DNA from: an uncultured Clostridia bacterium | GTDB taxonomy: Bacteria > Bacillota > Clostridia > Christensenellales > Borkfalkiaceae | NCBI GenBank assembly: GCA_947624005.1 | Contig: CANQHV010000009.1 | Coordinates: 1-40,854, forward strand | Reading direction: 5' to 3' | Length of the DNA: 40,854 nucleotides | Shown: positions 20,541 through 37,856 of the stretch, one piece after another | Layout of the letters: each line of letters starts with the position of its first letter | Numbering within the stretch: position 1 is the stretch's first letter | Notes under the pieces: generated by a model | The model's input: the letters and a program-made list of their open reading frames with translations, nothing else | Told to the model about the DNA's origin: nothing | The model's database searches: none | Program-made: the position numbers and the translations under genes

Positions 20541-20816
20541 GCGCCGAAAAAAGGCGCGACCGAACGCTGTAAAATGTCTGCGGTGTTCGTGGTATGGAAA
20601 CTGCATAATCCACAAAATAAAATCGGGAGCTGTCGTTTGCGCAAATAGGCAAGGTCTGGTTTCGGAAAGTCCGACGTTGCGCTCCGCGCACCCACCTGCT
20701 TAAAGCGGGTTAATCTTTTTCATACCACGGCACAGGCGGATAAAAAACCGAGGATATCGGAGAGCAGAGTAATGCGCGCCCGCGGGTTCCCACCCGCGGG
20801 CGCGCCCACTTTTTCT
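20541..20816 (+). ncRNA. Stand-alone structured non-coding RNA of about 275 nt, family unassigned
   Basis: The transcript is bounded by a good promoter and a perfect terminator hairpin and has no credible gene. Many helices can be drawn: GCGCC/GGCGC at the 5' end, a long-range GTGGTATG (20589-20596)/CATACCAC (20721-20728) helix enclosing about 125 bases, TCGGA/TCCGA around AAG (20662-20674), GCAA/TTGC bracketing that hairpin, GCGC/GCGC around TCC (20680-20690), ACCC/GGGT (20690-20710) and CCGA/TCGG (20748-20760). The multi-branched core and unpaired conserved-looking blocks (GGAAACTGCATAATCC, CGGGAGCTGTCGTTTGCG) suggest an abundant functional RNA. GCGCTCCGCG also occurs in 6S RNA, and the size and isolation fit 6S or raiA-type RNAs. 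I cannot decide between them without a covariance search. Confidence 0.65.
20774..20815 (+). terminator. Terminator of the structured RNA
   Basis: GCGCGCCCGCGGGT (20774-20787) pairs with its exact complement (20792-20805) around TCCC, followed by CCACTTTTTCTT. Confidence 0.85.
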
Positions 20817-21092: not shown

Positions 21093-21121
21093 TTGACATA
21101 ATATAAATGTAATGTTACAAT
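21093..21121 (+). promoter_or_regulatory. Promoter of the pectate lyase operon
   Basis: TTGACA (21093-21098), 17 bases, TACAAT (21116-21121): near consensus. The leader is nearly 200 bases. Confidence 0.85.
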
Positions 21122-21142: not shown

Positions 21143-21226
21143 TTTTATCGTAGCGAGCTTACGATAAAGGCGCAGTCGCCCTTCTTTGGGTGCGACTGCG
21201 CCCCGAAAAACTTTATCAGATTAAAG
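21143..21226 (+). promoter_or_regulatory. Structured 5' leader with shared element (copy A)
   Basis: Two hairpins occur: TTTATCGTA/TACGATAAA (21144-21168) and GGCGCAGTCGC/GCGACTGCGCC (21169-21202). Two bases later comes CGAAAAACTTTA (21204-21215), TCA and GATTAA (21219-21224). The same block, again directly after a GC hairpin, occurs in the leader of the giant LRR gene at 30198-30218. No known riboswitch family is recognised. Confidence 0.6.
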
Positions 21227-21284
21227 TTTTCAAACCGCGCCGTCGGGGGCATACCCGCCGAACCGCCCCGCAAGCCCGCCTCGT

Positions 21285-21312
21285 AAAATTTTTACTATTT
21301 AATAAAAATTTT
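21285..21312 (+). promoter_or_regulatory. AT-only hairpin abutting the ribosome binding site
   Basis: AAAATTTTTA (21285-21294) pairs with TAAAAATTTT (21303-21312). The SD GGAGG begins at the next base (21313). Such a hairpin could tune access to the start site or melt with temperature; this is inference. Confidence 0.45.
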
Positions 21313-21321
21313 GGAGGAAAA

Positions 21322-24300
21322 ATGAAAAGATTCAGAAAGCTGCTTTTACCGCTGTTTGCAGTGTTGCTTGTGTTGGCTTTGGTCTTCACGGCGGCTTGTT
21401 CAAGCTGTAAAAGTAAGGGCGACAATGACCCCGAAACGCCCCCCGAAGAGCAACAGCCCAGCGATGGCGACGCGGTAACATACTCGCTTAAAGGTATCAC
21501 ACTCGACACTTCTGCGGTAAAAACCGAATATCTTATCACATTGGGTAGCGACCACAAGCTTACTTTCGAAAAGTTTGATAAAAGCGGTCTTAAAGTAACC
21601 GCTACGATAGAAGGAAGCGACGGTTCGTCCGAAACCCGCGACGTCAGCTCGGCGGCATACGTTGACAGCAGAGCATTCGACGCCACAAAGCCTGGTGAAT
21701 ACGATATTCCCGTTTCGTATTGGTACGGCGTCGATACCGCAACCGCTACTTTCAAAGTAACGGTAACCTTTGCTAAGGACGGCGTTGACGTCATTCTTAC
21801 CGATAAGGTTATCGACAACGAGGCGTTTAAACTTAACGCGGCCAAGGACGAGGGCGACATTGACCTTTCCGCGGAGCTTCAAAATGTAACTATCGACCCC
21901 GATAAAATCGAGGTCAGACTTCCTAATGCCAATGGCGAAGTAGACTACACGTCCGACCCTCTTGCGGCTACCGATTACGACGTTTATGTTTATCAGGCAG
22001 GCAATGTAGGCGACGACGGCAAAATGTCTCCTCTTGAAAGCTTTACGGGACTTAAACGCGGTAGCTACGAAATTCTTGCGGTTCTCGAATCCGAGGACGG
22101 CGAGTATCAGGTTTCAAACTTCGCGGTTGTGTACGTCAACGACGAATTGACGACCCTTACGGTTGACAATGAAAACACAACAGCCCATACGCAACCCATG
22201 GGACCGAACACAATGTCTGAAAATTGGGAGTTCACCGCAACGTATAAAAGTGCGGATTCTGTAACGTTTACTGCGGCTGATTTAGACTATTACGGCGACA
22301 GTATTGACTTCAAACCCGTTAATACTTTCACTAAACTGCGTACACAGCAGACGGCTACGGTAACATATCATTACAGAACCGTTCGCGGCGAGGCAAAAAC
22401 GAAAACGGCAGACGTAACCTATACTATAACGGACCCCGAACAAGATTTGACTTTCAAAACCGTTCTTGATATGAATGATTTGTCTTCTATTGCGGACGGA
22501 GCTAAAATTGGCGGCGACGAATACGGCGTTATCGAGATATTTAATGTAGGAAGTAGTTTGGGCTCGGAAGAAACAACTTTCTCCGACGGCTTTAAAGCTA
22601 AAAAATACTTTAACGGAAATAACAATGCTTATGCGATAAAAATCGTATCGCCCGGGGCTATGCAGGTAAAAGTATGGTTCTATTGCTCTTCCGGTAGCAC
22701 AGGCGATATTAAAAATACAAAACTCGCTCTCAGTAAAGGTGAAGGTGTAGACAATAGTTATAATAAAGACGAGAGGTCTTACACTTCGCCCGAAAGGTAC
22801 AGACGTTCTAATTATACCAATAAAGACGTCGAAAGCGACCTTGCTCCCGTAAAGTTCTCGGTTGCGGAGGGCGGCACCTATTATCTGCACAGAGGCGACA
22901 CCAATTCTTTCCGTATCTGCAAAATCGAAGTAACCACCGTTATTAAAGTAGACGGCGATGTTGACATCAAGACTGCGACGTTCCACGAGTACGATACAAA
23001 CACCGTTACTCAAAAGCTTATCAACTACGATTATAACAATATTAATAAAGCTGAAACTTATACGCCGGAGCGTCCGGGTTATAAGTTCGACGGTTGGTAT
23101 ACTCAAGAGGAAGACGGCGAGGAATTCGACTTCACAAAGCCTATTACAGAAGACACCGATATTTACGCTCATTGGACCGAACTTGCAGTTACGGGCATAA
23201 AGGCTGAAAAGACTACGGAAAAATATATCCTCGTAAACGATAAAGTTGAAATTTCCACTGACGATATAACTGTTAAGTCTTCTGCCGACGCTCCTCTTTC
23301 GTCAAGTTGGAGTAAAACATTCGAGTTATACGATAACGCCGACTGCACAGGTAACAAAATTACCGATTTTAATGCGACCGAAGCAAAGACCTATTATATT
23401 AAGGTTATAGCGACAAAGGGCGAGGACGCACCTCTTACTGCCGTTATACCTGTAACGGTTACTAATCCTGCGGCAACGGATATTTCGCTTAAAAACGGTG
23501 CGAATTCTGTTTCTGGTAATACTATAAACGGTCGTTTGGATTCGTTGAGCAAGTTTGATATCCAAGAGGCAATTAAAGATATTCAATTCTTTGTCGGAAG
23601 TGAAGAACTTGCAAAGACCGACGCTTCGGGTAAATGGACTATTACACCCGTAATTTCGCAAGGCACAGGCACGTTGGATAGCGACGGCAAAACTGCTACT
23701 GCGGTCGGCAATTATACGGTAACATATACCTTGTCAAAACAGGGTATGACCGACAGCTTAACCGTCGTTCTTACAGTTGCCGTAGGCGAATATTCCGCAT
23801 CGATAGACGCTGTTAATATCGATATGAATAATCTCTTCCCTAGTAATACAACTCTTGATGCAAGCAATGCAACGCTTTATTCCGGCGACCATGCGACCGT
23901 TTCGGTGGACGTAAAAACGTATAAAGCTAAGAATGGTGCGGCAGATGCTCTTGTGACATATGTAACCGACAATAATGAACAGTCTGTTGAAGGCGAAACA
24001 AACAAGAAAATGAAAACCCGCTTAAAATTAGCTGGTTCTGCAACAGAAGGTTTTGCTAGCGATAAAGCGGCAAAAACAATAATAAATGTTATTAAAATCC
24101 ATGTTGACAGAGCCTGCACAGTTACTGGGTATATTCGTAGCAGTAGTGGTAGCGAGGACAGAACGGTAAATCTTTACACCTATAGCGATTCAGTAGTTAA
24201 TTATACAAATATCTCTACTACTAATGTACCTGCTGGTAGCACTATACACAAGGTTACTTTTACTATAAGTGGGGCAGGCGATTATTATCTCGGCTCGGCT

Positions 24301-24345
24301 AGTAGCGGTATAGGCGTATACGGAATTGACATAGTGTTCAATTAA
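21322..24345 (+). CDS. Multidomain cell-surface lipoprotein, probable carbohydrate-binding partner of the pectate lyase
   Basis: 1007 residues. The signal peptide ends at Cys26 (FTAACSSC), followed by an acidic Pro/Glu linker. Beta-sandwich or Ig-like modules fill residues about 45-370. A jelly-roll-like module (about 395-565) contains QVKVWFYCSSGSTGDI and ends GGTYYLHRGDTNSFRICKIEV. A Listeria-Bacteroides (InlB B-repeat type) module covers about 570-615 (ETYTPERPGYKFDGWYTQEE). More Ig-like modules follow. The C-terminal module (about 840-1007) resembles the first jelly roll (VTGYIRSSSGSEDR ... AGDYYLGSASSGIGVYGIDI). I see no catalytic motif. GGAGG sets the ATG at 21322. It is 22 bases ahead of the pectate lyase gene, suggesting a shared role in binding pectin. 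Base composition becomes AT-richer in the last 400 bases. Confidence 0.75.
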   Translation: MKRFRKLLLPLFAVLLVLALVFTAACSSCKSKGDNDPETPPEEQQPSDGDAVTYSLKGITLDTSAVKTEYLITLGSDHKLTFEKFDKSGLKVTATIEGSDGSSETRDVSSAAYVDSRAFDATKPGEYDIPVSYWYGVDTATATFKVTVTFAKDGVDVILTDKVIDNEAFKLNAAKDEGDIDLSAELQNVTIDPDKIEVRLPNANGEVDYTSDPLAATDYDVYVYQAGNVGDDGKMSPLESFTGLKRGSYEILAVLESEDGEYQVSNFAVVYVNDELTTLTVDNENTTAHTQPMGPNTMSENWEFTATYKSADSVTFTAADLDYYGDSIDFKPVNTFTKLRTQQTATVTYHYRTVRGEAKTKTADVTYTITDPEQDLTFKTVLDMNDLSSIADGAKIGGDEYGVIEIFNVGSSLGSEETTFSDGFKAKKYFNGNNNAYAIKIVSPGAMQVKVWFYCSSGSTGDIKNTKLALSKGEGVDNSYNKDERSYTSPERYRRSNYTNKDVESDLAPVKFSVAEGGTYYLHRGDTNSFRICKIEVTTVIKVDGDVDIKTATFHEYDTNTVTQKLINYDYNNINKAETYTPERPGYKFDGWYTQEEDGEEFDFTKPITEDTDIYAHWTELAVTGIKAEKTTEKYILVNDKVEISTDDITVKSSADAPLSSSWSKTFELYDNADCTGNKITDFNATEAKTYYIKVIATKGEDAPLTAVIPVTVTNPAATDISLKNGANSVSGNTINGRLDSLSKFDIQEAIKDIQFFVGSEELAKTDASGKWTITPVISQGTGTLDSDGKTATAVGNYTVTYTLSKQGMTDSLTVVLTVAVGEYSASIDAVNIDMNNLFPSNTTLDASNATLYSGDHATVSVDVKTYKAKNGAADALVTYVTDNNEQSVEGETNKKMKTRLKLAGSATEGFASDKAAKTIINVIKIHVDRACTVTGYIRSSSGSEDRTVNLYTYSDSVVNYTNISTTNVPAGSTIHKVTFTISGAGDYYLGSASSGIGVYGIDIVFN

Positions 24346-24367
24346 AGCGAGGAGGTGAAAAAAATTT

Positions 24368-27300
24368 ATGAAAAGATTTAAAAATTCGAAAAAGAAAATT
24401 CTTTCGGGCATAGCCGTTCTCGCTGTTTCGGCAACCGCTTTTGCAGGCGCACTGTCGCTTGCGGCTTGTAAAAAGTCCGTCCGCGACTCGGTTGAATCCA
24501 ATACCCGCATAGACGACGACACCGTGCTTATCGACACCGCCGTCGGAACGGCGTATTCTTCGACGGGCGGCAAAACCTATTACGTCGCACCGAACGGCAG
24601 TGAAGACGCCGCGGGTACAAAAGACGCGCCTCTTGCCCTTTCGGCTTTCAACGAGGACGCAACCAACGGTATTCAGGCTAAAATAAAGCTCGAGGGCGGC
24701 GATACGGTTTATTTACTGCCCGGCAAGTACGAACTTTCAAACAGAATTATCCTTACCGCCGACGGCGCGTTCAATAAATATATAAGGTTTATTAACGCCG
24801 CCCTCGACACGGAGGGAAGCAAATACGACGGCACGGAAAAAACCGTAACGCTCGATTTCAGCAAAATGGATATGGCGGACGGCAACCGCGGCGTGCAGAT
24901 TTACGGCGACTTCTATTATTGGGAAGGTATCGACGTCTGCGGCGCGGGCGACAACGGCTTGTTTATCGCAGGCAGTTACAACACCGTAGAGTATTCCGAA
25001 TTCTACAACAACCGCGACTCGGGACTTCAACTCGGCAGAGCAGAATCCTCGATGACCAAAATCAGCCAGTGGCCCGCATATAACCTTGTTAAAAACTGCA
25101 CCTCGCACAACAATTACGACAACGAGGGAACCAAGGGCGAAAACGCCGACGGTTTCGCGGCAAAGCTTACCATAGGCTACGGCAACGTATTCGACGGCTG
25201 TATCGCTTACCGTAACTCCGACGACGGTTGGGACTTGTACGCATACGCGCAGAACGGCAATATTGGCACGGTTATAATTTATAACTGCGTAGCGTTCGAA
25301 AACGGCTATCTCGAATATACCCAAGCGGACTGCAACGCGCGGTTTTCGAAGTCGAACAACGTAGTTTCCGACGCGGACTTCTACGACCAATTCGAAAACG
25401 GTAATTCGTATGTGCCTTTCAACGGCGACGGCAACGGCTTCAAGCTCGGCGGCTCGGTTATGGAGGGCGACGTAAAGCTTTACAACTGCCTTTCGTTCAA
25501 CAACAGAATGCACGGTATAACCGATAACTCCAACCCCGGCGTTATCGAGGCTACCCGCGTAACCAGCTACGATAACTCGGCGGTTATCGAAAACGACCCC
25601 GCAAACGAAAATTTCGGTCAGATAGTCAGCGCTTCCGATTATTACGACGAAACCGTTCCGAATACGCACAGAAGAGCGGCGGAAGGTCACGGCAACATAG
25701 ACCTTGCGCGCCAGACCTATTCGTACAATGCGTTAAACGGCGCGCTGTCGGTTAAGTCGTCGTTGGCGGAAAAGCTCGACAACGACGCGTACCGCGCCTC
25801 CGTTGTAAATAGTCTGCTTAATGCGGGCGATAACACCAACGTTATAAAGGGCAAGATTGACGCAGACACCAGAAATGACGGCGGAAAAACCAATACCTCG
25901 CAGATAACCGCGCTTAACCCGACGGAAATTTTCGCAAAACTGCCCTTAACTACCGACGGCGTTACCCGTAATATTTCGGGTCTTAAAGACGGTCTTGACG
26001 GCTCTACACTTAAATCAACCCGCGTTCACTTAACGTACCGCAACGCCGAGGACCACTCCATAAATATGAAAGATATTCTTAAAATGAATTCTTTCACGGC
26101 GGGCGAACTTACACAAGACGACGTAGGCTCCGTCCTCGACAAAACTTCGTGGAATGACTACACTCACTACGTTAACGAAGGGGCGCTTGATGCGGCGGAA
26201 AGCGCGGATCAGGCGGCTGTTATCAAGGCGAAAGAGTCGGTAGAACTTCCCGTAGACGAAGACGCGGTATTCCAGGACTTCGAAGTTCCCGTAGTTCTTA
26301 ACGGTAACGTTTCGGTAAAGTGGACTGTCGAAAAAGCGGAAGATCAGAAGTATATCGTAGTTTCGGAAAGCACAAATAGAAACCCGATTAACAATTCGGA
26401 ATTTGCGACCATTCTCGTTTACCGTCCTTCGATGGCAGATGGCGAGAAAGAGGTTACGCTTAAAGCGACGTATACCTGCGGCGCGGCTACCGAAACCAAA
26501 GAGTATACTCTTAAAATTCAACCCGGCAATCCCTCGATAGGACGTATTTTCGCAACCACAATGACGGGCGAAGAGATAGAGGACGGCGAAACTTATATTC
26601 TCGACCAGTACTCCAAATTCACCGAACCTGTTATAAGCGTTGAAAACGGTCTTGACTACAACGGCAAAATGCTTCTTGAAGAGCAGTACGATATGACTAT
26701 CAGATACTACTATGCAAAGAGCAAAAACGACGACAAGGTCGAAGTAAGCGGCTTTACGGCTTCCAAAGCGGGTGTGTTCACAATCGTAGTTTCCGTCAAC
26801 CTTAAAGGCGACGAAGAAAATGTTGAAACCATGACTTACACCATAATGGACGCAAGCACGGCGGCGGACGTTGACTTCACGTCAGACGCGGTTGTCAAGG
26901 TAAACCGCGACGGCTTTACCATTACGGGCGAACCTTCGAGCGCAACAGGCTATATCTACGCCGTAACTTCCGCTTCGGCACGCGACGATTTGACTGCGGA
27001 AAATATCAAGTCCGATCCCGACGTTCAGACGTTCTCGTTCAGATCCGACAAGATTTCTCAACAGTTCGCAAACGCAAACAAAGCGGGTTACACCATTTAC
27101 TACGCGCTGGGCAATATGAACGGCAAAGTAACCGGCGAAGTTAAATCCGCTACGGTTATCGTCAAGGAATTTAATACCACCGACGACTTCATAACTATTG
27201 CGGGCGGTGGAGACCTTGACGGCGTAACCAATGCCGACCTTACAATCTACAAACTCACCGCCGACCTCGATTTCAGCAGCGTAACCTATTCGATAAGCAA

Positions 27301-28264
27301 GAATTCGTTCTCGGGTATGCTTGACGGTCAGGGTCACACGGTTAAAAACATTTCGACAGACAACTATGTGCTTTACAAGTTGAACGGCGGCACGATTGAA
27401 AATATCAAGTTTGAAAACGTTGCCCTTACGCCCTCTGAAGATAAGGCGGGCTTGTTCAGCGAAATAACGGGCGGCTATGTGTATAACATACAGCTTAAAA
27501 ACTTCGATATTACGGGCGGTAGCTATAACCGTTTGGGCGGCATTTCGGGCGTAGTTTCCGAAGCGACAATGCCTTTGTATATCAGTCAGGTTTCGTTAGA
27601 CAGCGCTTCTGCGTTTACAACTGCGGGCTACCGCGTAGGCGGCTTGATAGGTCACGTTCAGTCTACGGGAAATCCCGAAAAGCCCAATACCGTAAGAATC
27701 ATAATAAGCGACTGCCTTGTCAGTGCAAATCTTAATGCAGGCGACAAGGGTGCGATAGGCGGTATGGTAGGCGAATTCGACCCGAATAAGATAAGTGGTG
27801 TAGGTTGGACGGCAAACGATTGCTATATGACAATCACCAACTGCGTATTCACGGGCGTTGCAAAAACCTCGTCGAAGTCCTCGGGCGGTAAAATAGGCGG
27901 TATGGTAGGCGACCAGAAAGGTATGTCGAAGATAGAAATTACCGGCTGTATGAACGTCGGCGAACTTTACAACGGCGGCAGTGACACCGAACCTTTGACG
28001 GTTGCCGAAAAGAATGCGTCGCCTATGTTCGGCGCAACCACCAATGGCACAACGGGTATTCTGACGGTTACAAACTGCATCGGTTTGTTCGAGCCTTACT
28101 CGCTTGACTTGATGATATACGAACTTGGACAGATTAAAGCGGACGGCAAAATTTATTTCGATATCGTTCTTAAACTCGATTTCGAAAACAAGTGGTCGCT
28201 TGTACTTGACGACGACGGAGAAACGCTTAAAGCGCCTTTCCTTGCGCTTAACTTCCTCGCGTAA
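24368..28264 (+). CDS. Family PL9 pectate lyase lipoprotein with C-terminal Ig-like and beta-helix modules
   Basis: 1298 residues, lipoprotein Cys34 (LSLAACKKS). The catalytic right-handed beta-helix (about 65-480) opens with KTYYVAPNGSEDAAGTKDAP. It carries the PL9 calcium and catalytic residues with the spacing I recall for Dickeya Pel9A: Asp261, Asp285, Asp286 and Asp289 (DDGWD), and Lys359 in GNGFKLGG. The enzyme should cleave polygalacturonate by beta-elimination at the cell surface. Residues about 625-725 form an atrophied bacterial Ig-like domain (VELPVDEDAVFQDFEVPVVL). The last 350 residues hold a GLUG-like beta-helix (RLGGISGVV, RVGGLIGHV, AIGGMVGEF, KIGGMVGDQ). A GAGGAGG SD precedes the ATG. 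It shares the promoter at 21093. Confidence 0.88.
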   Translation: MKRFKNSKKKILSGIAVLAVSATAFAGALSLAACKKSVRDSVESNTRIDDDTVLIDTAVGTAYSSTGGKTYYVAPNGSEDAAGTKDAPLALSAFNEDATNGIQAKIKLEGGDTVYLLPGKYELSNRIILTADGAFNKYIRFINAALDTEGSKYDGTEKTVTLDFSKMDMADGNRGVQIYGDFYYWEGIDVCGAGDNGLFIAGSYNTVEYSEFYNNRDSGLQLGRAESSMTKISQWPAYNLVKNCTSHNNYDNEGTKGENADGFAAKLTIGYGNVFDGCIAYRNSDDGWDLYAYAQNGNIGTVIIYNCVAFENGYLEYTQADCNARFSKSNNVVSDADFYDQFENGNSYVPFNGDGNGFKLGGSVMEGDVKLYNCLSFNNRMHGITDNSNPGVIEATRVTSYDNSAVIENDPANENFGQIVSASDYYDETVPNTHRRAAEGHGNIDLARQTYSYNALNGALSVKSSLAEKLDNDAYRASVVNSLLNAGDNTNVIKGKIDADTRNDGGKTNTSQITALNPTEIFAKLPLTTDGVTRNISGLKDGLDGSTLKSTRVHLTYRNAEDHSINMKDILKMNSFTAGELTQDDVGSVLDKTSWNDYTHYVNEGALDAAESADQAAVIKAKESVELPVDEDAVFQDFEVPVVLNGNVSVKWTVEKAEDQKYIVVSESTNRNPINNSEFATILVYRPSMADGEKEVTLKATYTCGAATETKEYTLKIQPGNPSIGRIFATTMTGEEIEDGETYILDQYSKFTEPVISVENGLDYNGKMLLEEQYDMTIRYYYAKSKNDDKVEVSGFTASKAGVFTIVVSVNLKGDEENVETMTYTIMDASTAADVDFTSDAVVKVNRDGFTITGEPSSATGYIYAVTSASARDDLTAENIKSDPDVQTFSFRSDKISQQFANANKAGYTIYYALGNMNGKVTGEVKSATVIVKEFNTTDDFITIAGGGDLDGVTNADLTIYKLTADLDFSSVTYSISKNSFSGMLDGQGHTVKNISTDNYVLYKLNGGTIENIKFENVALTPSEDKAGLFSEITGGYVYNIQLKNFDITGGSYNRLGGISGVVSEATMPLYISQVSLDSASAFTTAGYRVGGLIGHVQSTGNPEKPNTVRIIISDCLVSANLNAGDKGAIGGMVGEFDPNKISGVGWTANDCYMTITNCVFTGVAKTSSKSSGGKIGGMVGDQKGMSKIEITGCMNVGELYNGGSDTEPLTVAEKNASPMFGATTNGTTGILTVTNCIGLFEPYSLDLMIYELGQIKADGKIYFDIVLKLDFENKWSLVLDDDGETLKAPFLALNFLA

Positions 28265-28299
28265 GAGTTGTAATGTAACCTGCGGATTTCCGCAAATAT

Positions 28300-28336
28300 G
28301 CGGGCGCGGCATATTGCCGCGCCCGCTGTATTTTTT
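28300..28336 (+). terminator. Terminator of the pectate lyase operon
   Basis: GCGGGCGCGGC (28300-28310) pairs with GCCGCGCCCGC (28316-28326) around ATATT, followed by TGTATTTTTT. A smaller TGCGGA/TCCGCA hairpin lies just before it (28281-28294). Confidence 0.85.
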
Positions 28337-28603
28337 GCCGCGCTTGCGGTTTTATCGCCGCCGTTTTTGGCGTTTTTTGCCTTCAAACCGCCGTTTTTGC
28401 GCGATTTTTGCATTTCGGTCGCGGCTTTAAGCCCGTTTCGGTCGCGCGGCGCGGTAAAATCTGCCGCTGTTCGGAGTTCGCCGCCGTTTTTCGGCGTTAT
28501 TTTCCACCGAGTCAACCGCTACCGCCGCGCCCGCCATATTCCTCGCCCGAAAATTCCGTCGAAACCGCCAACCGTTTCGGCGCGGCGTTGGGTGGCAATT
28601 TGC
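28337..28603. other. Intergenic stretch with CCGCCGTTTTT repeats
   Basis: No gene is supported; open frames on both strands here are low-complexity and lack ribosome binding sites or family features. The motif CCGCCGTTTTT occurs three times, followed by GGCG, GCGC and CGGCG, in the first 160 bases. I see no function. Confidence 0.5.
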
Positions 28604-28632
28604 TTTACTTTCGGCGCGGCGCGTGCTAAAAT
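28604..28632 (+). promoter_or_regulatory. Promoter of the malic enzyme gene
   Basis: TTTACT (28604-28609), 17 bases, then TAAAAT (28627-28632) preceded by TGC, an extended -10. Confidence 0.7.
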
Positions 28633-28690
28633 GTTTATAATCGTTTGTCGCGCTTGCGGCTGATTACAAAATGAACACAAAGAGGTCACA

Positions 28691-29869
28691 ATGGATTACA
28701 GAAGAGAATCGCTTAAAAAACACGCAGAATGGCGGGGCAAAATCGAGGTTAAAGTGCGCGTGCCCGTCACGAATCGCGACGAACTGTCGCTTGCTTATAC
28801 CCCCGGCGTCGCCGAGCCTTGCCTCGCGATACACGACGACATAGAAAAATCGTTCGAACTCACCCGACGTTGGAACACCGTTCCCGTCATCACCGACGGC
28901 ACCGCGGTTTTGGGGCTGGGCGATATCGGACCCGAAGCGGGTATGCCCGTAATGGAGGGCAAGTGCGCGCTTTTCAAGGAATTCGGCGACGTTGACGCGT
29001 TCCCGCTTTGTATTTCGTCGAAAGACCCCGAAGAGATTATAAAGACAATAAAGCTGTTGCAAGGTTCGTTCGGCGGCATAAATCTCGAAGATATTTCCGC
29101 ACCCCGCTGTTTCGAAATCGAAACGCGGCTTAAAGAGGAACTCGATATCCCCGTTTTTCACGACGACCAGCACGGAACGGCGGTTGTTTCGACTGCCGCG
29201 CTTATAAACGCGCTTAAAATCGTCGGCAAAAAAATGGAAGATATTTCCGTTGTCATAAACGGCGCGGGCGCGGCGGGTATAGCCATCGCGAAATTTCTGT
29301 TGAGGTTCGGCGTAAAGGACGTAACTATGTGCGCAAGCCGCGGAATTATCTGCGAGGGCGATACTTCGGTGAACCCCGCGCAGCAGGAAATCGCAAAAGT
29401 CACAAACCGCCGCCGTTTGACGGGGAAACTCGCAAACGCTATGGTGGGAGCGGACGTGTTTATAGGCGTTTCCGTCGCAAATTGCGTGACGGGCGATATG
29501 GTAAAGAGTATGGCGGACAAGGCGATAGTATTTACGTGCGCCAATCCCGTACCCGAAATTCCCCGCGAAGACGCGCTTAAAGCGGGCGCGGCGGTTGTCG
29601 GAACGGGTTCGTCTGCGTACCCCAACCAGATTAACAACGTACTTGTGTTCCCCGGGCTGTTCCGCGGCGCGCTCGACGTACGCGCAAAGACCATAAATTA
29701 CGAAATGATGATGGCGGCAAGCCGCGGAATCGCAAGTTGCGTTCCCGACGACAAGCTTACGCCCGATTATATTCTGCCTTACGCGTACGATAAATCGGCG
29801 CATAAAGCCGTTGCGAAAGCGGTGGCGGAGGCGGCTGTCGCCTCGGGCGTGGCTCGGCTGAAAATTTAA
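28691..29869 (+). CDS. NAD(P)-dependent malic enzyme
   Basis: 392 residues, the short bacterial form without the phosphotransacetylase-like extension. It decarboxylates malate to pyruvate in the cytoplasm. Motifs: LSLAYTPGVAEPC (catalytic Tyr), TDGTAVLGLGDIGPEAGMPV, MEGKCALFKEFGDVDAF (catalytic Lys), metal-binding NLEDISAPRCFEIE and FHDDQHGTA, the Rossmann VINGAGAAGIAIAKFLL and FTCANPVPEIP. Cofactor preference is not clear from sequence. AGAGG lies seven bases before the ATG. It is a single-gene unit between promoter 28604 and terminator 29903, with no functional tie to the surface genes on either side. Confidence 0.94.
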   Translation: MDYRRESLKKHAEWRGKIEVKVRVPVTNRDELSLAYTPGVAEPCLAIHDDIEKSFELTRRWNTVPVITDGTAVLGLGDIGPEAGMPVMEGKCALFKEFGDVDAFPLCISSKDPEEIIKTIKLLQGSFGGINLEDISAPRCFEIETRLKEELDIPVFHDDQHGTAVVSTAALINALKIVGKKMEDISVVINGAGAAGIAIAKFLLRFGVKDVTMCASRGIICEGDTSVNPAQQEIAKVTNRRRLTGKLANAMVGADVFIGVSVANCVTGDMVKSMADKAIVFTCANPVPEIPREDALKAGAAVVGTGSSAYPNQINNVLVFPGLFRGALDVRAKTINYEMMMAASRGIASCVPDDKLTPDYILPYAYDKSAHKAVAKAVAEAAVASGVARLKI

Positions 29870-29902
29870 AAGATAAAATTAATATACCTTATAATATAAC
29901 AC

Positions 29903-29954
29903 TGCGCCGCGGCGAAAATTTTTTTGCCGCGGCGCAAGGTCGTTTTTTACGAAT
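29903..29954 (+). terminator. Terminator of the malic enzyme gene
   Basis: TGCGCCGCGGC (29903-29913) pairs with GCCGCGGCGCA (29926-29936) around a twelve-base AT loop. A T-run (GTTTTTTA) follows at 29942. The rest of the gap to 30076 is AT-rich with nothing else recognised. Confidence 0.65.
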
Positions 29955-30076
29955 TTCATTGTTTATAAGGCTTTTTTCCGCGGTTTTTGCGCCGAAACTC
30001 TTTCTATTTCGCGCAAGTGCCCGAAAGTTATAAAATAACATAAAATGAAAGAAAGTAAAAATAATTTGTTAAACTA

Positions 30077-30105
30077 TTGACTTTCTTGCCGTATTTTATT
30101 ATAAT
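30077..30105 (+). promoter_or_regulatory. Promoter of the giant LRR protein operon
   Basis: TTGACT (30077-30082), 17 bases, TATAAT (30100-30105): near consensus. Confidence 0.85.
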
Positions 30106-30110
30106 ATAAA

Positions 30111-30219
30111 CTATAAAAGTATAGCTTGTGAACCGAGTAAGCACGGTTTGCGAGGGTATTTTTCATACCCTCGGTACAGGGCGCGAACGCCCTGTACCGA
30201 AAAACTTTAATTGATTAAG
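30111..30219 (+). promoter_or_regulatory. Structured 5' leader with shared element (copy B)
   Basis: Four hairpins follow in series: CTATA/TATAG (30111-30124), AACCG/CGGTT (30131-30148), CGAGGGTAT/ATACCCTCG (30151-30173) and GGTACAGGGCG/CGCCCTGTACC with a CGAA loop (30173-30198). The block CGAAAAACTTTA, ATT, GATTAA follows (30198-30218) and runs directly into the SD GGAGAAG. It matches copy A at 21204-21224 except for the three middle bases. Confidence 0.6.
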
Positions 30220-30230
30220 CGGAGAAGAAT

Positions 30231-33200
30231 ATGAGGTTTAAATTGAAGAAGATGAGTTTTAAAGCGGCGTTGATTGCCCTCGCCGCCGTTTTAGCGGCGT
30301 GCGCGGCGGGAATTGCGGCGCTTTTCTTTTCGCGTTCCGGAAGCGCACGCGCCGATACGCCCGTGGCTATTGCCGACGACCCTTTCGAAGTAAACGACGC
30401 GAAGTATTTTACAGTAGAATCGGGTTCGATTGCCTATACAAGCAACAGCGGCGCACCCACTTATACAAATATAGTAAAAGGTCTTAAATTCGACGAATTG
30501 GAAAGCGGCGGTTGGGACGGTTCGAAGCCGTTAGCCGTTGACCTTTCCGCGGTCAGCGGAGTAGACGCGATAGCCGATTGCGCTTTCAGTAATAACACGA
30601 CGGCTAACAAGGGCAATTTCCGCAATGCGAAAATTGTTTCGGTTAAGATTCCGTCTACCGTTAAAGAAATCGGTCCCGAAGCTTTCTACAACCTTACAAA
30701 CCTTACCTCTGTAGATTTCGATTGCTCGGGCGCGCAAACGACCGACTTGATTATCAGCGGCGGATATAATACGTATTTTTATAACGGCGCGAAGGGCTCT
30801 GCCTCCTCCCAATATTCGGGGGCATTTTACGGTTGCAGTTCGCTTACATCTCTTGCGATTCCCGACAGAACAAAGTCGATAGAACAATGCGCGTTTGCGG
30901 GTTGTAGCGGCATAACCGACCTTATTTTGCCTTTTACGGGCAATAAGGCAGATGCGGCGTTAGGCAACCCTTCGTATCTCGGCTATATTTTTTCAAGAAC
31001 TAATACGGCGGGAATGATAAGCGCCAAGCAGACTTATTACAGTGGGGACAGAATTTATAATAACGGCACGACATATTACGTTCCCCAAAACCTTAACACC
31101 GTTACTGTTACGGGCGGAACAAATAAGCGTATCGACAGTATGCAAAGCGGCACGCTTTCGGGGCTGACCACGGTTAAAACAATAAATCTTCCCGAACAAC
31201 TTGTAAATATAGCTTCCGCAACTTTCTACGGCTGTACTTCGCTTAACGATATAGAAATACCCTCAACCGTCACGTCGGTCGATAAGATGGCATTTATGAA
31301 TTGCTCGGCTTTGCAAACCGCGCCTATGCCCTCTAACCCGTCATTTACAAAAATCGCGGAAGGAACTTTCAACGGCTGTACAGGTATAAGCGAAGTCACA
31401 ATTCCCGACAGCGTTATAAGTATAGAAAAGGACGCATTCCGTCAGACGGGGCTTAATACCGTAGAATTGAAGGACACGGTTACGACTTTGGGTGAAAGCG
31501 TATTCTACGGCTGTGCAAATCTTACAACCGCCAAGCTTCCGAATGCGATTGCGAATAACATTATCGGCAAGGAATTGTTCAGAGAGTGTACTCACCTTTC
31601 GGCGATAGAAATACCGGCAAATATAACCGAAATAGGGCAATATGCCTTTTATAAAACGGGTATCAGTACCCTTTCAGTACCCGCAAGCGTTACAAAAATA
31701 GGGGAGAGCGCCTTTGCGGAATGTCAGTCTATAAGCAGTATAACCCTTACAAGCGGACTTACCGATATAGGCAAGAATGCTTTTAATAACTGCAACAGCA
31801 CAAGTTTGACAAGGATTGAAATCCCCGCGACGGTTACGACGATAAACGACGGCGCGTTTGCAAGAACCAAGTTGCAGTCCGTAACTTTTGCTTCGAGGTC
31901 CGCCGAACAGCTTGCTCTTAAAAACGACGGCGGTTCGTCTACCGCGGGCGTTTTCTATCAATGCACCGAACTTCAAACAATAAATTTACCTAATGTGTCC
32001 GAACTCGGCAAATATACTTTCAACGGTTGTTCGAAATTGACCGACGTTACGTTTAGCGGCGGCAGTTTCGACGCTATTCAGTCTGGAGCTTTTTATAGTT
32101 GCAGTATGCTTAATTCCGTGACGGGTATTCCCGAATCGGTTACCGCTATTCAGAATGAAGCGTTCCGAAGCTGTTCGAAATTGACCGAATGTACGGGCGA
32201 TTTGACAAATGTTTCCACTATCGGCAGCAGCGCGTTCAGTAGTTGCAGTTTGCTTCAAAGCCTCGCTTTTTCTTCGTCGGTTGACGTTCAATCGGATTTG
32301 ACGAGTATAGGCGGCTCTGCGTTTGACGGATGCGGAGCGTTAGCCGCGTTCAATTTGTCGCAGGTTACAAATATCGGTTCGCAGGCGTTCAGAAATTGCG
32401 GTAATTTCGACACCGCCGATTTGCAAAGCGCTACCACGGTAGAAACAAACGCTTTTGCTTCAAGCGGTCTGACTGCGGTCACTCTGTCGGAAAGCCTCGC
32501 AACTTTGGGAAGCGGCGCATTTTCGGGCACAAAAATAACAAACATAACTTTCCCCGTGGGCGTAACCGTATTTACGAAGAGCGTGCCGCAAAGTATATTA
32601 TCAAGTTGTACCTCGCTTCAATCGGTAATATTCGAATGTGATTTTACGGCGGATATACCGAACAATATGTTCTCGGGTTGTACGTCGCTTTCGGATATAC
32701 AATTCAAAGGTACGTTTACTCCCGCCGCAATAGGTAATTCGGCGTTCTATAATACCCCGATTTCGTCGTTTACTGTTCCCGAAACCGTCACAACAATAGG
32801 CTCTTCCGCATTTTCATCCTGCAAAAATCTTGTACTTCAACTCAATTCTGCGGAAAAATATCTGCCCACGAACTTAACCTCGCTCGGAAATTCGGCTTTC
32901 AGCGGTTGCACCAATCTGACGGATATAAATATCCCTCAAGGCATTAAAAAAATTCTGGACAACACATTCGACGGCTGTACCAATCTGCAAACCGTTACTT
33001 GCGACGACGGCGTTGCAATCACGGAATTCGGCGAATATTCTTTCAGAAATTGTTCAAACCTTTCCAATGTGAATTTCACATACGACGGGTCGGTTGAAAA
33101 CATAATTTTCGGCAGAGGGGCGTTTTATAGCTGCAAAGCGCTCGAATCGTTTGTTCTTCCCGAAAATATAACTTGTTTCGGGGAAAAGAACGGCACGTCC

Positions 33201-36200
33201 GTTTACGGCGAAGTTTTCTACGGTTGCTCGGCTTTGAAAAGCGTTACATACGGCACCGAAGCGGCGGAGGACGGCGCGGTTAAGCTTCCCGCGAGAATTA
33301 TCGAGATGGGTCCGAGTATATTCAGCGGCTGTACTCTGATAACCAAGGTTTATTGGAATTCCAATCTCAAATCCGTTCCCGACAATACTTTCCTGAATTG
33401 TTCTGTAAGCGAATTTGTCTTTGCCGACGACAATGACAAACTTACTTCCATCGGCTCAAGCGCCTTTTCTAATTGTAAATTCGGTACTGGTACTTTTGAT
33501 TTTAAAAGAATCGACGGCGGAACAATAGGTAGTAACGCGTTTTACGGCTGTCCTTTCGAAACTCTCGACCTGTCGCCCGTCCGCGAAATAGGCGGCGGCG
33601 CATTCGGCGGCAACGCTAATCTTATTTCGATAACTCTTCCGTTCGTGGGTCAAAACGCGTCCGCTACGACAGGTTCTTCGTCTACATTCGGTTTTATTTT
33701 CGGAAGCAGTCAATACGTCGGGTCCGATAGAATAACTCAACATTATCAGAATAACGAGGGAAGTACAACTACTTACACGACTTACTATTATATCCCCAAT
33801 ACTTTAAATACAATTACGCTTGTCGGCGCAAACGTAGTTTCCTCGGGCGAAACGGTAATTCCCGTAGGCGCGTTCGAGGGGCTTAAATATGTAAAGACAA
33901 TCAATCTGCCCGAAGAGGGGCTTGTTTGCGTACGCGATTACGCGTTTTACGGTTGCAACGCAATCGAAACTTTGGTAATACCGCAGTCGGTTGAAAGGTT
34001 CAAACCCCTGACAACTTCCGGTACGGGCGTAGGGCATTTCTTCGAAAACTGCAAAGGACTTAAAAATCTGACGTTGCCGTTCATAGGCGTTACGGGGACG
34101 ACAAGGGAAGACCTCGCGGCAATGTTCGGCATAACCAACGCGGACGACGGTTTGACTACTTACCCCGCGTTGACTTCGATAACGCTTACCAACGCCGAAG
34201 AGCTGGGCAAAAACGCCCTCCGCAACGGCGCGAATATCGAAACGCTTGTATTGCCCGAGAATATGATAAGAATCGAATCGGGGTCGCTGTATAATTGCCG
34301 TTCGCTTACTGCGCTTACGCTTCCGTTCCTCGGACTTAACGCAGGCTCGACCGAAAACGCCACGTTAAGCGCGCTTTTCGGCGGCAATATTCCTACCAAC
34401 CTTAAAACAGTCGAACTTCTCGGCGGCGAGTTGGGAGTAGGGGCGTTCAAAAACGCAAGTGTGACAACGGTCAAACTTCCGTCAAGCGTAGACAGTATTC
34501 CCGAAAGCGCGTTTGAAAATTGCTCGGCTCTTACCGAGGTAGATTTTACCGACGGCGGAAATATTTTCGAAATTGGCGCGGCGGCGTTTAAAGGCTGTTC
34601 GGCTTTGGTAACGCTTGACCTTTCGAATTCGGTGCGCGCCATAGGCGCAAGCGCGTTCGAGGGTTGCAAACTTCTTTCGGAATTTACAATTCCCACAAGC
34701 GTAAATGTTATAGGCGAAAGGGCGTTCTACGGTTGCGAATCGCTTGTTTCGGTAAATCTTTCAAGCGTTTCCCAAATCGGCAGTTCGGCGTTCGCGGGTT
34801 GCGCAGCGTTGTCGGAAGTTACTCTTTCGAGTACGCTTACCAAAATCGAAGATTCCGTTTTCAACGGCTGTAAGGCGCTTGAAACTATAAAAGCGGCGGG
34901 CACCGACAACGTGACAAAGGCGAATCTGCCCTCCGCAATAACCGAAATAGGCAGTTCGGCGTTCGCGGGGTGCGAGGCGTTGGAAAGCATAACGCTTTCT
35001 GAAGATTTGGAAACGATAGGCAGGTCGGCGTTTGAAAAGAATTCGGGTCTGCGCATTCTTATAATTCCCGCGGGCGTTAAAAACGTAGCTTCGAACGCAT
35101 TTCAGGATTGCACGGCGTTGCAGTTTGTTTATCTGCCCGACGGAGCGTCCTACGGTTCGAACGTGTTCTCGAACCTGCCTGCCGAAGCCGTGCTTATAGC
35201 TTCGGGTCTGACTGTTTACAAAAATGTAATAACTCAACTCGGCACTTATAAGTCGCAGGTAACATACCTTATAACCGTAAATTACAACATTATTTCCGAA
35301 ACCGACGTTTACGATAGCGAGTATCGCCTTTTTAACAAGGAATTTAACTACGTAAGACAAGACGACGGCAGTTGGAAAACCGACGCAAACATAACGTCTG
35401 TAAACAAGGGGCTTTACGGCCCCACGTCGGCAACGGTATGGCGCGAGGGCATGTCCGCAAGCTCGGCTGTGGCGTCGCTAAACAGCATAAACGCAAAACT
35501 TAAAACGGAAGTGGCAAAAATCGACCTGTACGCAAAGTATTATAACCGCGAAGACATAGAGGAGTTGCAGGCGGTTACCGATATCACTTTCGGCGACGTT
35601 CCCGTTATGAGTATGTCGGGTTCGCGTTCCGCGGCTCAGATTAACTACATTAAATCGAATATACTCGCCGAAAACGACGATTTCGACAATCTTGACGCGA
35701 CCGTTCACCGTGTGGCAAGTTGGCTTTATACGCCTTTCGACGGCGAGGCGACCTCGACAATAGAAAATCTCGGCTATGCGGGCGAGTACACGGCAAAAAT
35801 CGACCTGCTGTCGACAATCGGCTCGTGGGGCGAAGATAACTATGTCGAAATTACTTTCACAATCAAGCGCAAAGAAATAAATATAGATATGGATTGGGCG
35901 GCGGGACGCGCCGAAAGCGAAAGTTCCGACGATTCGACAATAAACTGGCAGCCTTTGCAAGATCATTCGGGCGATATAAACGGCAAGCCTTTCACGGGTG
36001 ACAATATTGCTGTTACAGGTAACGGTAGAGTAATTAAAGTTGCTCCTTACGATTGGGTGATGGACGAAACTCCGACTTTGCCCGATTCTACGGTTAAAGT
36101 TTACACTGTAAGTTACGAAAATCCCCGCTTTTACAACTACGGCACAGCGTCAGCTGATTACACCACAGAGGCGCTTTTCACGCTATCGAAAGAAGCGGAG

Positions 36201-37856
36201 GGGAATTACGCTCTTGTTGGCACGACGGATAACACCCGATATTTGACTGTAATCATAACGGGCAATACCGCAACGGTAACCAAGCAGTGGCTTATTTTGC
36301 CTTGGGCAGGCGGAGGCTCGGGCGGTAGCTCGGGCGGCGGAACTACTGTCGCAACGCCGAAACTTGTAAACGCAAGCGGCGACGAGTGGGAAATGAAGTC
36401 GAAATGGCAGTTCGGTCACAATCCCGAAATAGCCGCGCCCGTTGCGCGCGACTCCGAGGGACACGAAATGGCTGGAACAAGCGTAACGTTTACTTTAAGA
36501 ACGCGCAGTACTTCGCCTATCGCGACCGTTGCGCTCGAAAAGAGTACGGAAACTACCGTAAGTGAAGAATTCGACCTCTCGCAGTTTGCTTACTGGATTA
36601 ACGGCGCGGTTCCCGCGGGCAGTTACACGCTCGATGTGGTCATAGAGGGCGGGTATTCGAGGGTGTTCCGTTTCACGGTTACGCCGAATGCTTTCGATAT
36701 TTCGAATATATTCGGAGGCGCGCGTGCCGCAACCAACGAATTCACCTTGCCTTATACGGGCGAAGCGGTTTTGCCCGAACTCAACGTCAATATGCCCGAA
36801 ACCTCCGTACTGCGCGACGGTACGGGTTGGAGCGACGCAAAATACGACGAGTTCTATTCGACGGGATATAATATAGAATACAGCGTCGATTACAGCGATT
36901 GGCTTAAAGCGGAAGATATAAAAACCGAACTCGGCGGTCAGCTTGTAAACGTCGGCTACGACGAAAACGGCGAATATATAACTCACACCGTATTTTACAG
37001 AATTTCGGCAGACAATTACGCTACGGTTGGCGGACAGAGCAGCGCGTATAAATTTACCGTCACGATTATCCCCGCCGATAACGAGTTTACCGAAGAATAC
37101 TACCGCGCGGATTGGACGGAGGGTCAAACGGCAAGCGACGCGCATATACCGCATACTAAATTCGGCGACGGCTCGTATGAAATCAAGTGCTACACCGACG
37201 AAGAGTGCACCAAAGAATACACCGCAACGTCCTTTGCGGTAGGAACGTATTACGTAATAGTTCGCGTTCCCGGTTCGGATAATTGGAACGAGCTTGTCAA
37301 CACGACGCCTTATGTGTTCAACGTCTTCGAAAAGTCGGCTGTGCCCGTCGACCCTACCATACACAGACCCGCAGGCGCGTCGTCACCCAACGGCTTCTCG
37401 ATAACGACTTCCGCAAAACTCAATACGCGCGTAATGATAATCGTATGCATTATTATAGGCATAGTATTGGTGCTTGCTCTTATAGTGCTTGTGGTAATAC
37501 TTGCGCTCCGCGCGCAGAAACGCCGCAAGGTGCTTTTCGAAAGAATAATGACTATAACGTCAAAACCTATTTCGGCATATCTGCCGCAGAATAATCCAAG
37601 CCTCGGATACGGCGGAAGACAGCCTGTGGGAAGCCTGCCGCAGAATATTTACGATATCCCCGAGGGCGATACCGACCCCGACGGCTTCTACGACGGCACG
37701 CTGTCGCAAAAGGAAATCGAAGAAGTATTCGGTAAATCGTTTGCGCGCCGCGCAACTCCGAATCCGTCAACCGACGCAGCCGCCGCGGACGCGTACGACG
37801 TTACCGACGGCGCAGAGGCAAATAACGGTGCAGGAGGCGACGACGATGAAAAGTAA
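30231..37856 (+). CDS. Giant BspA-type leucine-rich-repeat surface protein with C-terminal membrane anchor and cytoplasmic tail
   Basis: 2541 residues. The basic N-terminus and hydrophobic signal end near GSARA-D, a signal peptidase I type site; an internal LAAC could be misread as a lipobox. Dozens of LRR_5 (BspA/TpLRR) repeats run from about 60 to 1665, consensus IPxxVTxIGxxAFxxCxxLxxVxL. Four units are interrupted by longer loops starting LPFxG (near 233, 1135, 1281 and 1363). Beta-rich Ig/MBG-like modules fill about 1665-2395, split by a glycine linker (GGGSGGSSGGG, about 2027). A membrane helix (about 2401-2427) and a basic stop-transfer KRRK precede a 110-residue acidic tail (NIYDIPEGDTDPDGFYDG). 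No LPXTG motif is present. GGAGAAG precedes the ATG. It overlaps the solute-binding protein gene by 11 bases. Roles in adhesion or glycan capture are inferred. Confidence 0.88.
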   Translation: MRFKLKKMSFKAALIALAAVLAACAAGIAALFFSRSGSARADTPVAIADDPFEVNDAKYFTVESGSIAYTSNSGAPTYTNIVKGLKFDELESGGWDGSKPLAVDLSAVSGVDAIADCAFSNNTTANKGNFRNAKIVSVKIPSTVKEIGPEAFYNLTNLTSVDFDCSGAQTTDLIISGGYNTYFYNGAKGSASSQYSGAFYGCSSLTSLAIPDRTKSIEQCAFAGCSGITDLILPFTGNKADAALGNPSYLGYIFSRTNTAGMISAKQTYYSGDRIYNNGTTYYVPQNLNTVTVTGGTNKRIDSMQSGTLSGLTTVKTINLPEQLVNIASATFYGCTSLNDIEIPSTVTSVDKMAFMNCSALQTAPMPSNPSFTKIAEGTFNGCTGISEVTIPDSVISIEKDAFRQTGLNTVELKDTVTTLGESVFYGCANLTTAKLPNAIANNIIGKELFRECTHLSAIEIPANITEIGQYAFYKTGISTLSVPASVTKIGESAFAECQSISSITLTSGLTDIGKNAFNNCNSTSLTRIEIPATVTTINDGAFARTKLQSVTFASRSAEQLALKNDGGSSTAGVFYQCTELQTINLPNVSELGKYTFNGCSKLTDVTFSGGSFDAIQSGAFYSCSMLNSVTGIPESVTAIQNEAFRSCSKLTECTGDLTNVSTIGSSAFSSCSLLQSLAFSSSVDVQSDLTSIGGSAFDGCGALAAFNLSQVTNIGSQAFRNCGNFDTADLQSATTVETNAFASSGLTAVTLSESLATLGSGAFSGTKITNITFPVGVTVFTKSVPQSILSSCTSLQSVIFECDFTADIPNNMFSGCTSLSDIQFKGTFTPAAIGNSAFYNTPISSFTVPETVTTIGSSAFSSCKNLVLQLNSAEKYLPTNLTSLGNSAFSGCTNLTDINIPQGIKKILDNTFDGCTNLQTVTCDDGVAITEFGEYSFRNCSNLSNVNFTYDGSVENIIFGRGAFYSCKALESFVLPENITCFGEKNGTSVYGEVFYGCSALKSVTYGTEAAEDGAVKLPARIIEMGPSIFSGCTLITKVYWNSNLKSVPDNTFLNCSVSEFVFADDNDKLTSIGSSAFSNCKFGTGTFDFKRIDGGTIGSNAFYGCPFETLDLSPVREIGGGAFGGNANLISITLPFVGQNASATTGSSSTFGFIFGSSQYVGSDRITQHYQNNEGSTTTYTTYYYIPNTLNTITLVGANVVSSGETVIPVGAFEGLKYVKTINLPEEGLVCVRDYAFYGCNAIETLVIPQSVERFKPLTTSGTGVGHFFENCKGLKNLTLPFIGVTGTTREDLAAMFGITNADDGLTTYPALTSITLTNAEELGKNALRNGANIETLVLPENMIRIESGSLYNCRSLTALTLPFLGLNAGSTENATLSALFGGNIPTNLKTVELLGGELGVGAFKNASVTTVKLPSSVDSIPESAFENCSALTEVDFTDGGNIFEIGAAAFKGCSALVTLDLSNSVRAIGASAFEGCKLLSEFTIPTSVNVIGERAFYGCESLVSVNLSSVSQIGSSAFAGCAALSEVTLSSTLTKIEDSVFNGCKALETIKAAGTDNVTKANLPSAITEIGSSAFAGCEALESITLSEDLETIGRSAFEKNSGLRILIIPAGVKNVASNAFQDCTALQFVYLPDGASYGSNVFSNLPAEAVLIASGLTVYKNVITQLGTYKSQVTYLITVNYNIISETDVYDSEYRLFNKEFNYVRQDDGSWKTDANITSVNKGLYGPTSATVWREGMSASSAVASLNSINAKLKTEVAKIDLYAKYYNREDIEELQAVTDITFGDVPVMSMSGSRSAAQINYIKSNILAENDDFDNLDATVHRVASWLYTPFDGEATSTIENLGYAGEYTAKIDLLSTIGSWGEDNYVEITFTIKRKEINIDMDWAAGRAESESSDDSTINWQPLQDHSGDINGKPFTGDNIAVTGNGRVIKVAPYDWVMDETPTLPDSTVKVYTVSYENPRFYNYGTASADYTTEALFTLSKEAEGNYALVGTTDNTRYLTVIITGNTATVTKQWLILPWAGGGSGGSSGGGTTVATPKLVNASGDEWEMKSKWQFGHNPEIAAPVARDSEGHEMAGTSVTFTLRTRSTSPIATVALEKSTETTVSEEFDLSQFAYWINGAVPAGSYTLDVVIEGGYSRVFRFTVTPNAFDISNIFGGARAATNEFTLPYTGEAVLPELNVNMPETSVLRDGTGWSDAKYDEFYSTGYNIEYSVDYSDWLKAEDIKTELGGQLVNVGYDENGEYITHTVFYRISADNYATVGGQSSAYKFTVTIIPADNEFTEEYYRADWTEGQTASDAHIPHTKFGDGSYEIKCYTDEECTKEYTATSFAVGTYYVIVRVPGSDNWNELVNTTPYVFNVFEKSAVPVDPTIHRPAGASSPNGFSITTSAKLNTRVMIIVCIIIGIVLVLALIVLVVILALRAQKRRKVLFERIMTITSKPISAYLPQNNPSLGYGGRQPVGSLPQNIYDIPEGDTDPDGFYDGTLSQKEIEEVFGKSFARRATPNPSTDAAAADAYDVTDGAEANNGAGGDDDEK

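Follow-up and report, generated by a model that had tools for sequence, protein, structure and literature searches.

The window under study, a stretch of 40,854 nucleotides (nt) of contig CANQHV010000009.1 (assembly GCA_947624005.1) from an uncultured Clostridia bacterium (Christensenellales; Borkfalkiaceae), carries two long operons for surface proteins, A and B, and both begin with a structured 5′ leader. The leader of operon A has a core of two hairpins, P1 and P2, that recurs in other genomes of the genus. We give a probability of roughly 0.5 to the reading that such structured leaders act after transcription has started and set the protein output from long surface-protein mRNAs, and we infer that they most likely tune translation or mRNA lifetime. 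As RNA structure, the A-type leader is well supported; the case for its function is weak.

Leader A is built from the following parts. A first-pass annotation of the same DNA had described the GC-rich hairpin P2 and the motif behind it; P1, which directly precedes P2, is an additional hairpin.

21144..21168, + strand: hairpin P1 (segments a and a′), recovered in relatives by the models R1 and R2, with covariation
21169..21202, + strand: GC hairpin P2 (the hairpin of motif copy A), with covarying counterparts in relatives
21204..21224, + strand: tail with the motif common to A and B; its end may form a small hairpin with 21225-21230
21271..21293, + strand: downstream segment able to pair with the 5′ strand of P1 (limits approximate)
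21279..21317, + strand: predicted hairpin that pairs CCUC with the Shine-Dalgarno sequence GAGG of the first gene

A covariation check, which the first-pass annotation had asked for, came out in favour of both hairpins. In the P1 alignment 91.6% of the cells pair, and the covariation score exceeded those of all 500 shuffled alignments and of all slides. For P2 taken together with its counterpart in leader B, all nine pairs (9/9) change on both sides among 14 sequences, a count that rests on hairpins chosen because they pair and trimmed by hand. No pair counts were taken from alignments A1, A2, A3, A4, A5 and A9, in which the stems were poorly aligned. Across relatives, P1 and P2 are thus well supported as RNA structure.

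The family was found through the proteins that follow it. The first protein of operon A, used as a query, has matches in 74 of the 93 genomes of the genus, many of them via repeat domains only, and upstream of several of these matches the same design recurred: P1 with the consensus UUUAUUG-(10-12 nt)-CAAUAAA, then the GC hairpin P2, then AAA followed by a pyrimidine and UU. Model R1, made from P1, matched the 93 genomes 12 times, once per genome, and ten of these matches were leaders as judged by eye; the other two (L174 and L175) were left out. Model R2, run on 398 genomes of the family, gave 37 matches. Thirty were inspected and 14 proved to be leaders, all within the genus, and the 16 inspected matches that lacked P2 and the tail (L186, L187, L189-L201 and L203) were omitted. 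The remaining seven of the 37 have no locus; six of them belong to the 16 matches outside the genus. Together with G199, which was reached via its protein, R1 and R2 place an A-type leader in 15 genomes of the genus; in our own genome, leader A is the sole one found. Within the subgroup L164, L166, L167 and L172, a second TGCGG stands shortly before P1 and is a possible extra partner for its 3′ strand. The leader of G110 lies at a contig break, where the contigs of L173 and L144 have 50 identical bases over P1 and P2.

The placement of the leader is conserved as well. Of the 14 leaders with upstream DNA, 13 have a TTGACA-type promoter whose −10 box ends 18-30 nt before P1 (with predicted start sites). 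With P1 so close to the promoter, a repeat of the type TTTATTG...CAATAAA just past the start site could also be read as a DNA operator in which the RNA hairpin is incidental, and this imperfect palindrome does have conserved half-sites. The spacing of the halves varies, however, giving repeats of 24 to 26 bases, P2 stands within a few bases of P1 in the recognised members, and pairs change on both sides. We consider an operator highly improbable.

The genes behind A-type leaders encode surface proteins of a lipoprotein-like type with partial homology to one another. Most of those seen have Flg_new and Big domains; exceptions are LRR_5 with DUF4886 in G285, Big_2 in G309 and four Flg_new repeats in G268. 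The A-type leader therefore accompanies different surface proteins, including a leucine-rich-repeat (LRR) protein as in operon B.

Folding predictions suggest that the family may switch between two folds in about half of its members. When 12 leaders were folded up to the start codon, the probability of P1 was at most 0.01 in six because its 5′ strand pairs downstream instead; in this case the 3′ strand is often paired with the tail, and a rod capped by P2 is predicted, most clearly in L170. Like the hairpins, their covariation and their placement, support for this alternative pairing was computed: in a partner test (n=15), each leader's own partners fitted better than those taken from other leaders, with p=0.00005 for the arms of P1, p=0.005 for segment a with the downstream segment and p=0.002 for segment a′ with the tail. 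Without close relatives (n=11), the latter two values were 0.008 and 0.007. Segment a pairs downstream with a mean probability of at least 0.60 in nine of the 15 leaders. Folding predictions on growing transcripts of A, L170, L165 and L188 had P1 appear before the long-range fold. Leader A itself is predicted to start with P1, to adopt the long-range fold from about 21286 onwards and finally to return to P1, at which stage the Shine-Dalgarno sequence is paired (its probability of being unpaired is 0.06).

Several results weigh against the proposed role of the leaders. Six of the 15 (L135, L164, L166, L167, L172 and L184) show the long-range fold weakly or not at all, and four of the other nine (L144, L145, L169 and L202) do not discriminate because shuffled downstream DNA undoes P1 as well, in 63-100 of 100 shuffles. 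In L145, P1 was not predicted as the first structure of the growing transcript. Divided into its parts, segment a gave p=0.03 for the loop half and p=0.12 for the stem half. For full-length leader A the prediction favours the P1 state (0.94), and in 12 other leaders the Shine-Dalgarno sequence is unpaired with mean probabilities of 0.39-0.88; L164 resembles leader A with 0.06, though the site taken for it there is probably a wrong one. The alternative folds predicted are all those of A-type leaders, with none shown for leader B. As for the hairpins themselves, further pair types in P1 were not above those of shuffles (275 of 500), to which the selection behind the P2 count has to be added.

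A mechanism consistent with these results would run as follows. An A-type leader would comprise P1, P2, the A-rich tail and the downstream segment, of which P1 would be the earliest hairpin to form. About half of the members have later segments that would undo P1, its 5′ strand pairing with the downstream segment and its 3′ strand with the tail, and the resulting fold would be one long rod with P2 as its cap. Leader A would enter the long-range fold once transcription passes about 21286. Completion of the ribosome site would bring P1 back, now together with a paired Shine-Dalgarno sequence, and which of the two states prevails, closed or open, could be decided by a ribosome or by a bound factor. 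Since the Shine-Dalgarno sequence is less buried in relatives, a role in mRNA lifetime or 5′-end processing appears likelier there. Leader B would be a second leader of other build with a similar end. A regulatory effect, its trigger and a joint regulation of A and B are what we infer from this arrangement.

The two predicted exclusive folds of leader A, one of which pairs the Shine-Dalgarno sequence, would also fit a ligand-sensing riboswitch or an RNA thermosensor that frees this sequence. The alignments do not contain a strongly conserved unpaired core, though, the relatives do not bury their Shine-Dalgarno sequences and no Rfam family matches, which makes sensing of this kind quite improbable. 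The main rival, less remote if still unlikely, is that the leaders are static 5′ stabilisers or processing landmarks, whose hairpins block nucleases, whose AU-rich tail is a cleavage site of the RNase Y type and whose alternative folds are side effects of repeated sequence. The start of P1 at 18-30 nt after the −10 box would suit such a role, as would a P2 that maintains its pairing and not its sequence, and structures at the 5′ end stabilise mRNA (PMC3997798). A study on RNase Y reports a preference for GA in AU-rich stretches near structure (PMC11780869), and A and B have G-AAAAA at this position; the structure reported for RNase Y lies downstream of the cleavage site, whereas here it lies upstream, and GA is not present in every tail. 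A merely static role also sits poorly with a P1 stem that keeps its sequence and with partner tests that favour selected alternative pairing.

The likeness between leaders A and B lies in their ends. The motif CGAAAAACTTTA-NNN-GATTAA occurs at 21204-21224 and 30198-30218 with 0 mismatches each, and the first base of motif B is the final base of the stem of hairpin B. What the first-pass annotation had stated about these two copies was borne out. They are the only matches in the window with up to three mismatches (shuffled sequences had a mean of 0.14 and never two); each follows an 11-bp hairpin (21169-21202 in A, with 11 outer base pairs, and 30173-30198 in B, with 11 bp); the two hairpins differ in sequence and maintain pairing; and the distance from the −10 box to the motif, given as about 80-90 bases, was computed as 82 nt in A and 92 nt in B. 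After the hairpin, 18 of 21 bases agree between A and B, by far the highest score among the 3321 pairs that the window's 82 hairpins (9 bp or longer, both strands) can form. Second comes a score of 15, from a single palindrome of leader B that was counted once per strand, and no other listed pair scores above 14. The 10-mer CGAAAAACTT has 43 sites in our own genome, where the reversed pattern has 15. Folding of the 60 preceding bases gives −36.1 (A) and −35.6 (B) kcal/mol, the next values being −25.6 and −24.5, and such a hairpin precedes only A and B.

As the mark of a family, the exact motif was rejected. In our own genome, it has seven places with up to three mismatches (two for the reversed control), with a hairpin at A and B only. 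A place with at most two mismatches exists in 83 of 301 family genomes, many of which the reversed control matches as well; of more than 100 such places 30 were inspected, none with a hairpin ending at the motif except A, and they resemble chance occurrences in coding sequence. Fourteen exact places in the collection genome_contigs, all from unrelated phyla, had no perfect GC hairpin ending at the motif as judged by eye. The proposed search for the conserved blocks in this and related genomes thus had a negative outcome, since neither leader has relatives that retain the 18-base motif. A loose form of the tail does recur: AAA follows within 0-3 nt of the hairpin in 14 of 14 leaders, A and B included and with hairpin ends placed by hand, and YNUU comes next in 13 of the 14, compared with averages of 2.2 and 0.6 in shuffled tails. 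A scan for a hairpin followed by AAA..YNTT gave 29 matches in 160 kb of own-genome sequence (the window and fetched stretches, partly overlapping). Most of them lie within long open frames, and A and B stand out as clearly leader-like; degenerate further copies are possible because the scan covered 160 kb of a 1.22 Mb genome. The likeness of the A and B tails is therefore above chance in our own genome, and relatives keep just its loose form. That the identity arose by chance or convergence without a shared function, with the hairpin leaders alone being real, is a serious possibility to which we accord somewhat less than even odds. The loss of the identity in relatives of both leaders and the partial explanation of the A-type tail as a partner for P1 speak for it; 18 of 21 agreeing bases behind two hairpins, far above every other pair, and the sharing of AAA and then YNUU by both tail types speak against it.

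Apart from this similar end, leader B is built differently from leader A, and two hairpins stand before the one first noted:

30125..30154, + strand: first hairpin, flagged as terminator-like
30152..30172, + strand: second hairpin, kept in two orthologues
30173..30198, + strand: third hairpin (the hairpin of motif copy B), pairing kept in two orthologues
30198..30218, + strand: tail with the common motif

Between 30125 and 30172, the first hairpin overlaps the second by three bases, and the T-run that follows it is the loop of the second. Orthologues of operon B are present in G199 and G149, where the second gene is 73% and 70% identical and the first gene aligns nearly throughout. Their leaders have the conserved second hairpin GAGGGYAUUUU..AURCCCUC and directly after it the third hairpin, whose sequence differs while the pairing is maintained; their tails are unlike that of leader B. 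A third LRR homologue, in G224, has a leader without such a hairpin array. When the second hairpin was tried as a search pattern, it found two of the 93 genus genomes and missed G149 because the loop there is one base shorter. Seen together, leaders A and B only partly confirm the shared regulatory RNA that had been proposed for the two operons: each operon has a structured leader at its start, and leaders of either type are retained at the corresponding place in relatives, but one shared conserved element is not supported, and A and B differ otherwise.

The operons themselves have the expected lengths of about 7 kb (A; 1007 and 1298 amino acids, aa) and 10 kb (B; 2541 and about 900 aa), as the gene coordinates confirm:

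21093..21121, + strand: promoter-like site of operon A, TTGACA-17-TACAAT (11/12 matches)
21322..24345, + strand: operon A gene 1, lipoprotein-like surface protein, 1007 aa (Flg_new; weak Big_3)
24368..28264, + strand: operon A gene 2, Pel9A-like beta-helix protein, 1298 aa
30077..30105, + strand: promoter-like site of operon B, TTGACT-17-TATAAT (11/12 matches)
30231..37856, + strand: operon B gene 1, LRR_5 (BspA-type) surface protein, 2541 aa
37885..40584, + strand: operon B gene 2, about 900 aa (start approximate; open frame from 37741)

The second gene of operon B has no sequence match in Pfam, NCBIfam or PDB, and 49 of 101 genomes carry homologues of it. A GC hairpin of the GCGCCCGC...GCGGGCGC type recurs in relatives between this homologue and the next gene, with a ribosome site of the TTTGGGGA type closely after it and inside the operon (L087, L089, L093, L095, L100, L104, L106, L111 and others). 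The open frames around the LRR matches of G254:C1 and G064:C11 span about 12,000 and 12,700 codons, which points to giant surface proteins. Upstream of operon A, a 6S RNA gene (Rfam RF00013) occupies window positions 20572-20746, and the neighbourhood of four further A-type leaders, as well as that of five homologues with no recognised A-type leader, likewise contains 6S RNA. An AdoCbl-II riboswitch aptamer (Rfam RF01689) is located at 2024-2099.

Large repeat-rich surface proteins are a main interface of gut-type bacteria with their surroundings. A leader family with a covarying core and possible refolding, placed before varied surface lipoproteins, offers a concrete handle for studying their control in uncultured lineages. 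In its furthest-reaching form, the idea would be that a genus-restricted bistable leader moves as a promoter-leader cassette before changing surface lipoproteins and that the GC hairpin with its AAA..YNUU end binds one trans-acting factor that co-regulates surface operons of the A and the B type, a proposal that we regard as improbable in this entirety. If the ends of A and B do have a common factor, they would represent a new co-regulation signal for surface operons; without one, the A-type leaders remain an undescribed leader family.

How do these leaders compare with known classes? In agreement with the earlier statement that no known family is recognisable, no Rfam 15 family reached the gathering threshold over the leaders. 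The scan, riboswitches included, returned only 6S, AdoCbl-II and tRNA, all outside the leaders, and with permissive limits the leaders gave matches far under threshold only. A literature search, in which subscription journals were thinly covered, found no paper on such a leader. The A-type leader is therefore a new candidate family of the structured mRNA leader kind.

Antitermination or attenuation, in which a LoaP-like or ANTAR protein binds the hairpins or leader B acts as a terminator switch of its own, would be in keeping with long operons, tandem hairpins after the promoter and the terminator-like first hairpin of leader B, which together with the second hairpin could form a small terminator/antiterminator pair. 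Against this stand the terminator predictions, with none between P1 of leader A and its gene, and with three terminator-like sites in the B region compared with 1.1 in shuffles. LoaP leaders come with a LoaP protein and contain a UNCG hairpin as well as a terminator (PMC12691694). The first-pass annotation had suggested processive antitermination as one possibility, and the gene search speaks against this type: none of the 93 genus genomes exceeded the NF033641 cut-off for LoaP, 84 of the 93 show a single NusG-like match, and our own genome (77% complete) has one NusG-domain gene. The leaders resemble the LoaP-dependent ones of dfn and mln from Bacillus velezensis in having a small hairpin at the start of very long operons; they differ from them in the absence of LoaP above the cut-off and of a UNCG loop, which was sought by eye in the hairpins of A, B and typed relatives, and, for A, of a predicted terminator. 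ANTAR hairpins have hexaloops with A1 and G4 and precede a terminator (PMC3369931). With the dual-hairpin antiterminators of eut, nasF and amiE, the leaders have in common that two hairpins stand in tandem behind the promoter and that pairings exclude one another. Unlike ANTAR hairpins, they have no A1/G4 hexaloops in the loops of A, B and relatives that were read, and an ANTAR protein gave no match in our 77% complete genome and matched in three of the 93 genus genomes, one of which, G268, is among the 15 leader genomes. Control by LoaP or ANTAR is unlikely, and antitermination or attenuation as a whole very much so. A cis-acting leader that tunes translation or mRNA lifetime is the view with the best support.

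Translational riboswitches and RNA thermosensors bury the Shine-Dalgarno sequence. The relatives of leader A differ from them in the absence of such burial; leader A itself resembles them in that one of its predicted folds pairs the site and the other frees it. Finally, stem-loops at the 5′ end are known to stabilise mRNAs such as aprE, ompA and papA. The likeness to these is a strong hairpin near the 5′ end, and a stable hairpin is indeed found at this position in 13 of 14 leaders, as judged from the distance between −10 box and P1. What sets the A-type leader apart from such stabilisers is that P1 keeps its sequence and has alternative partners.

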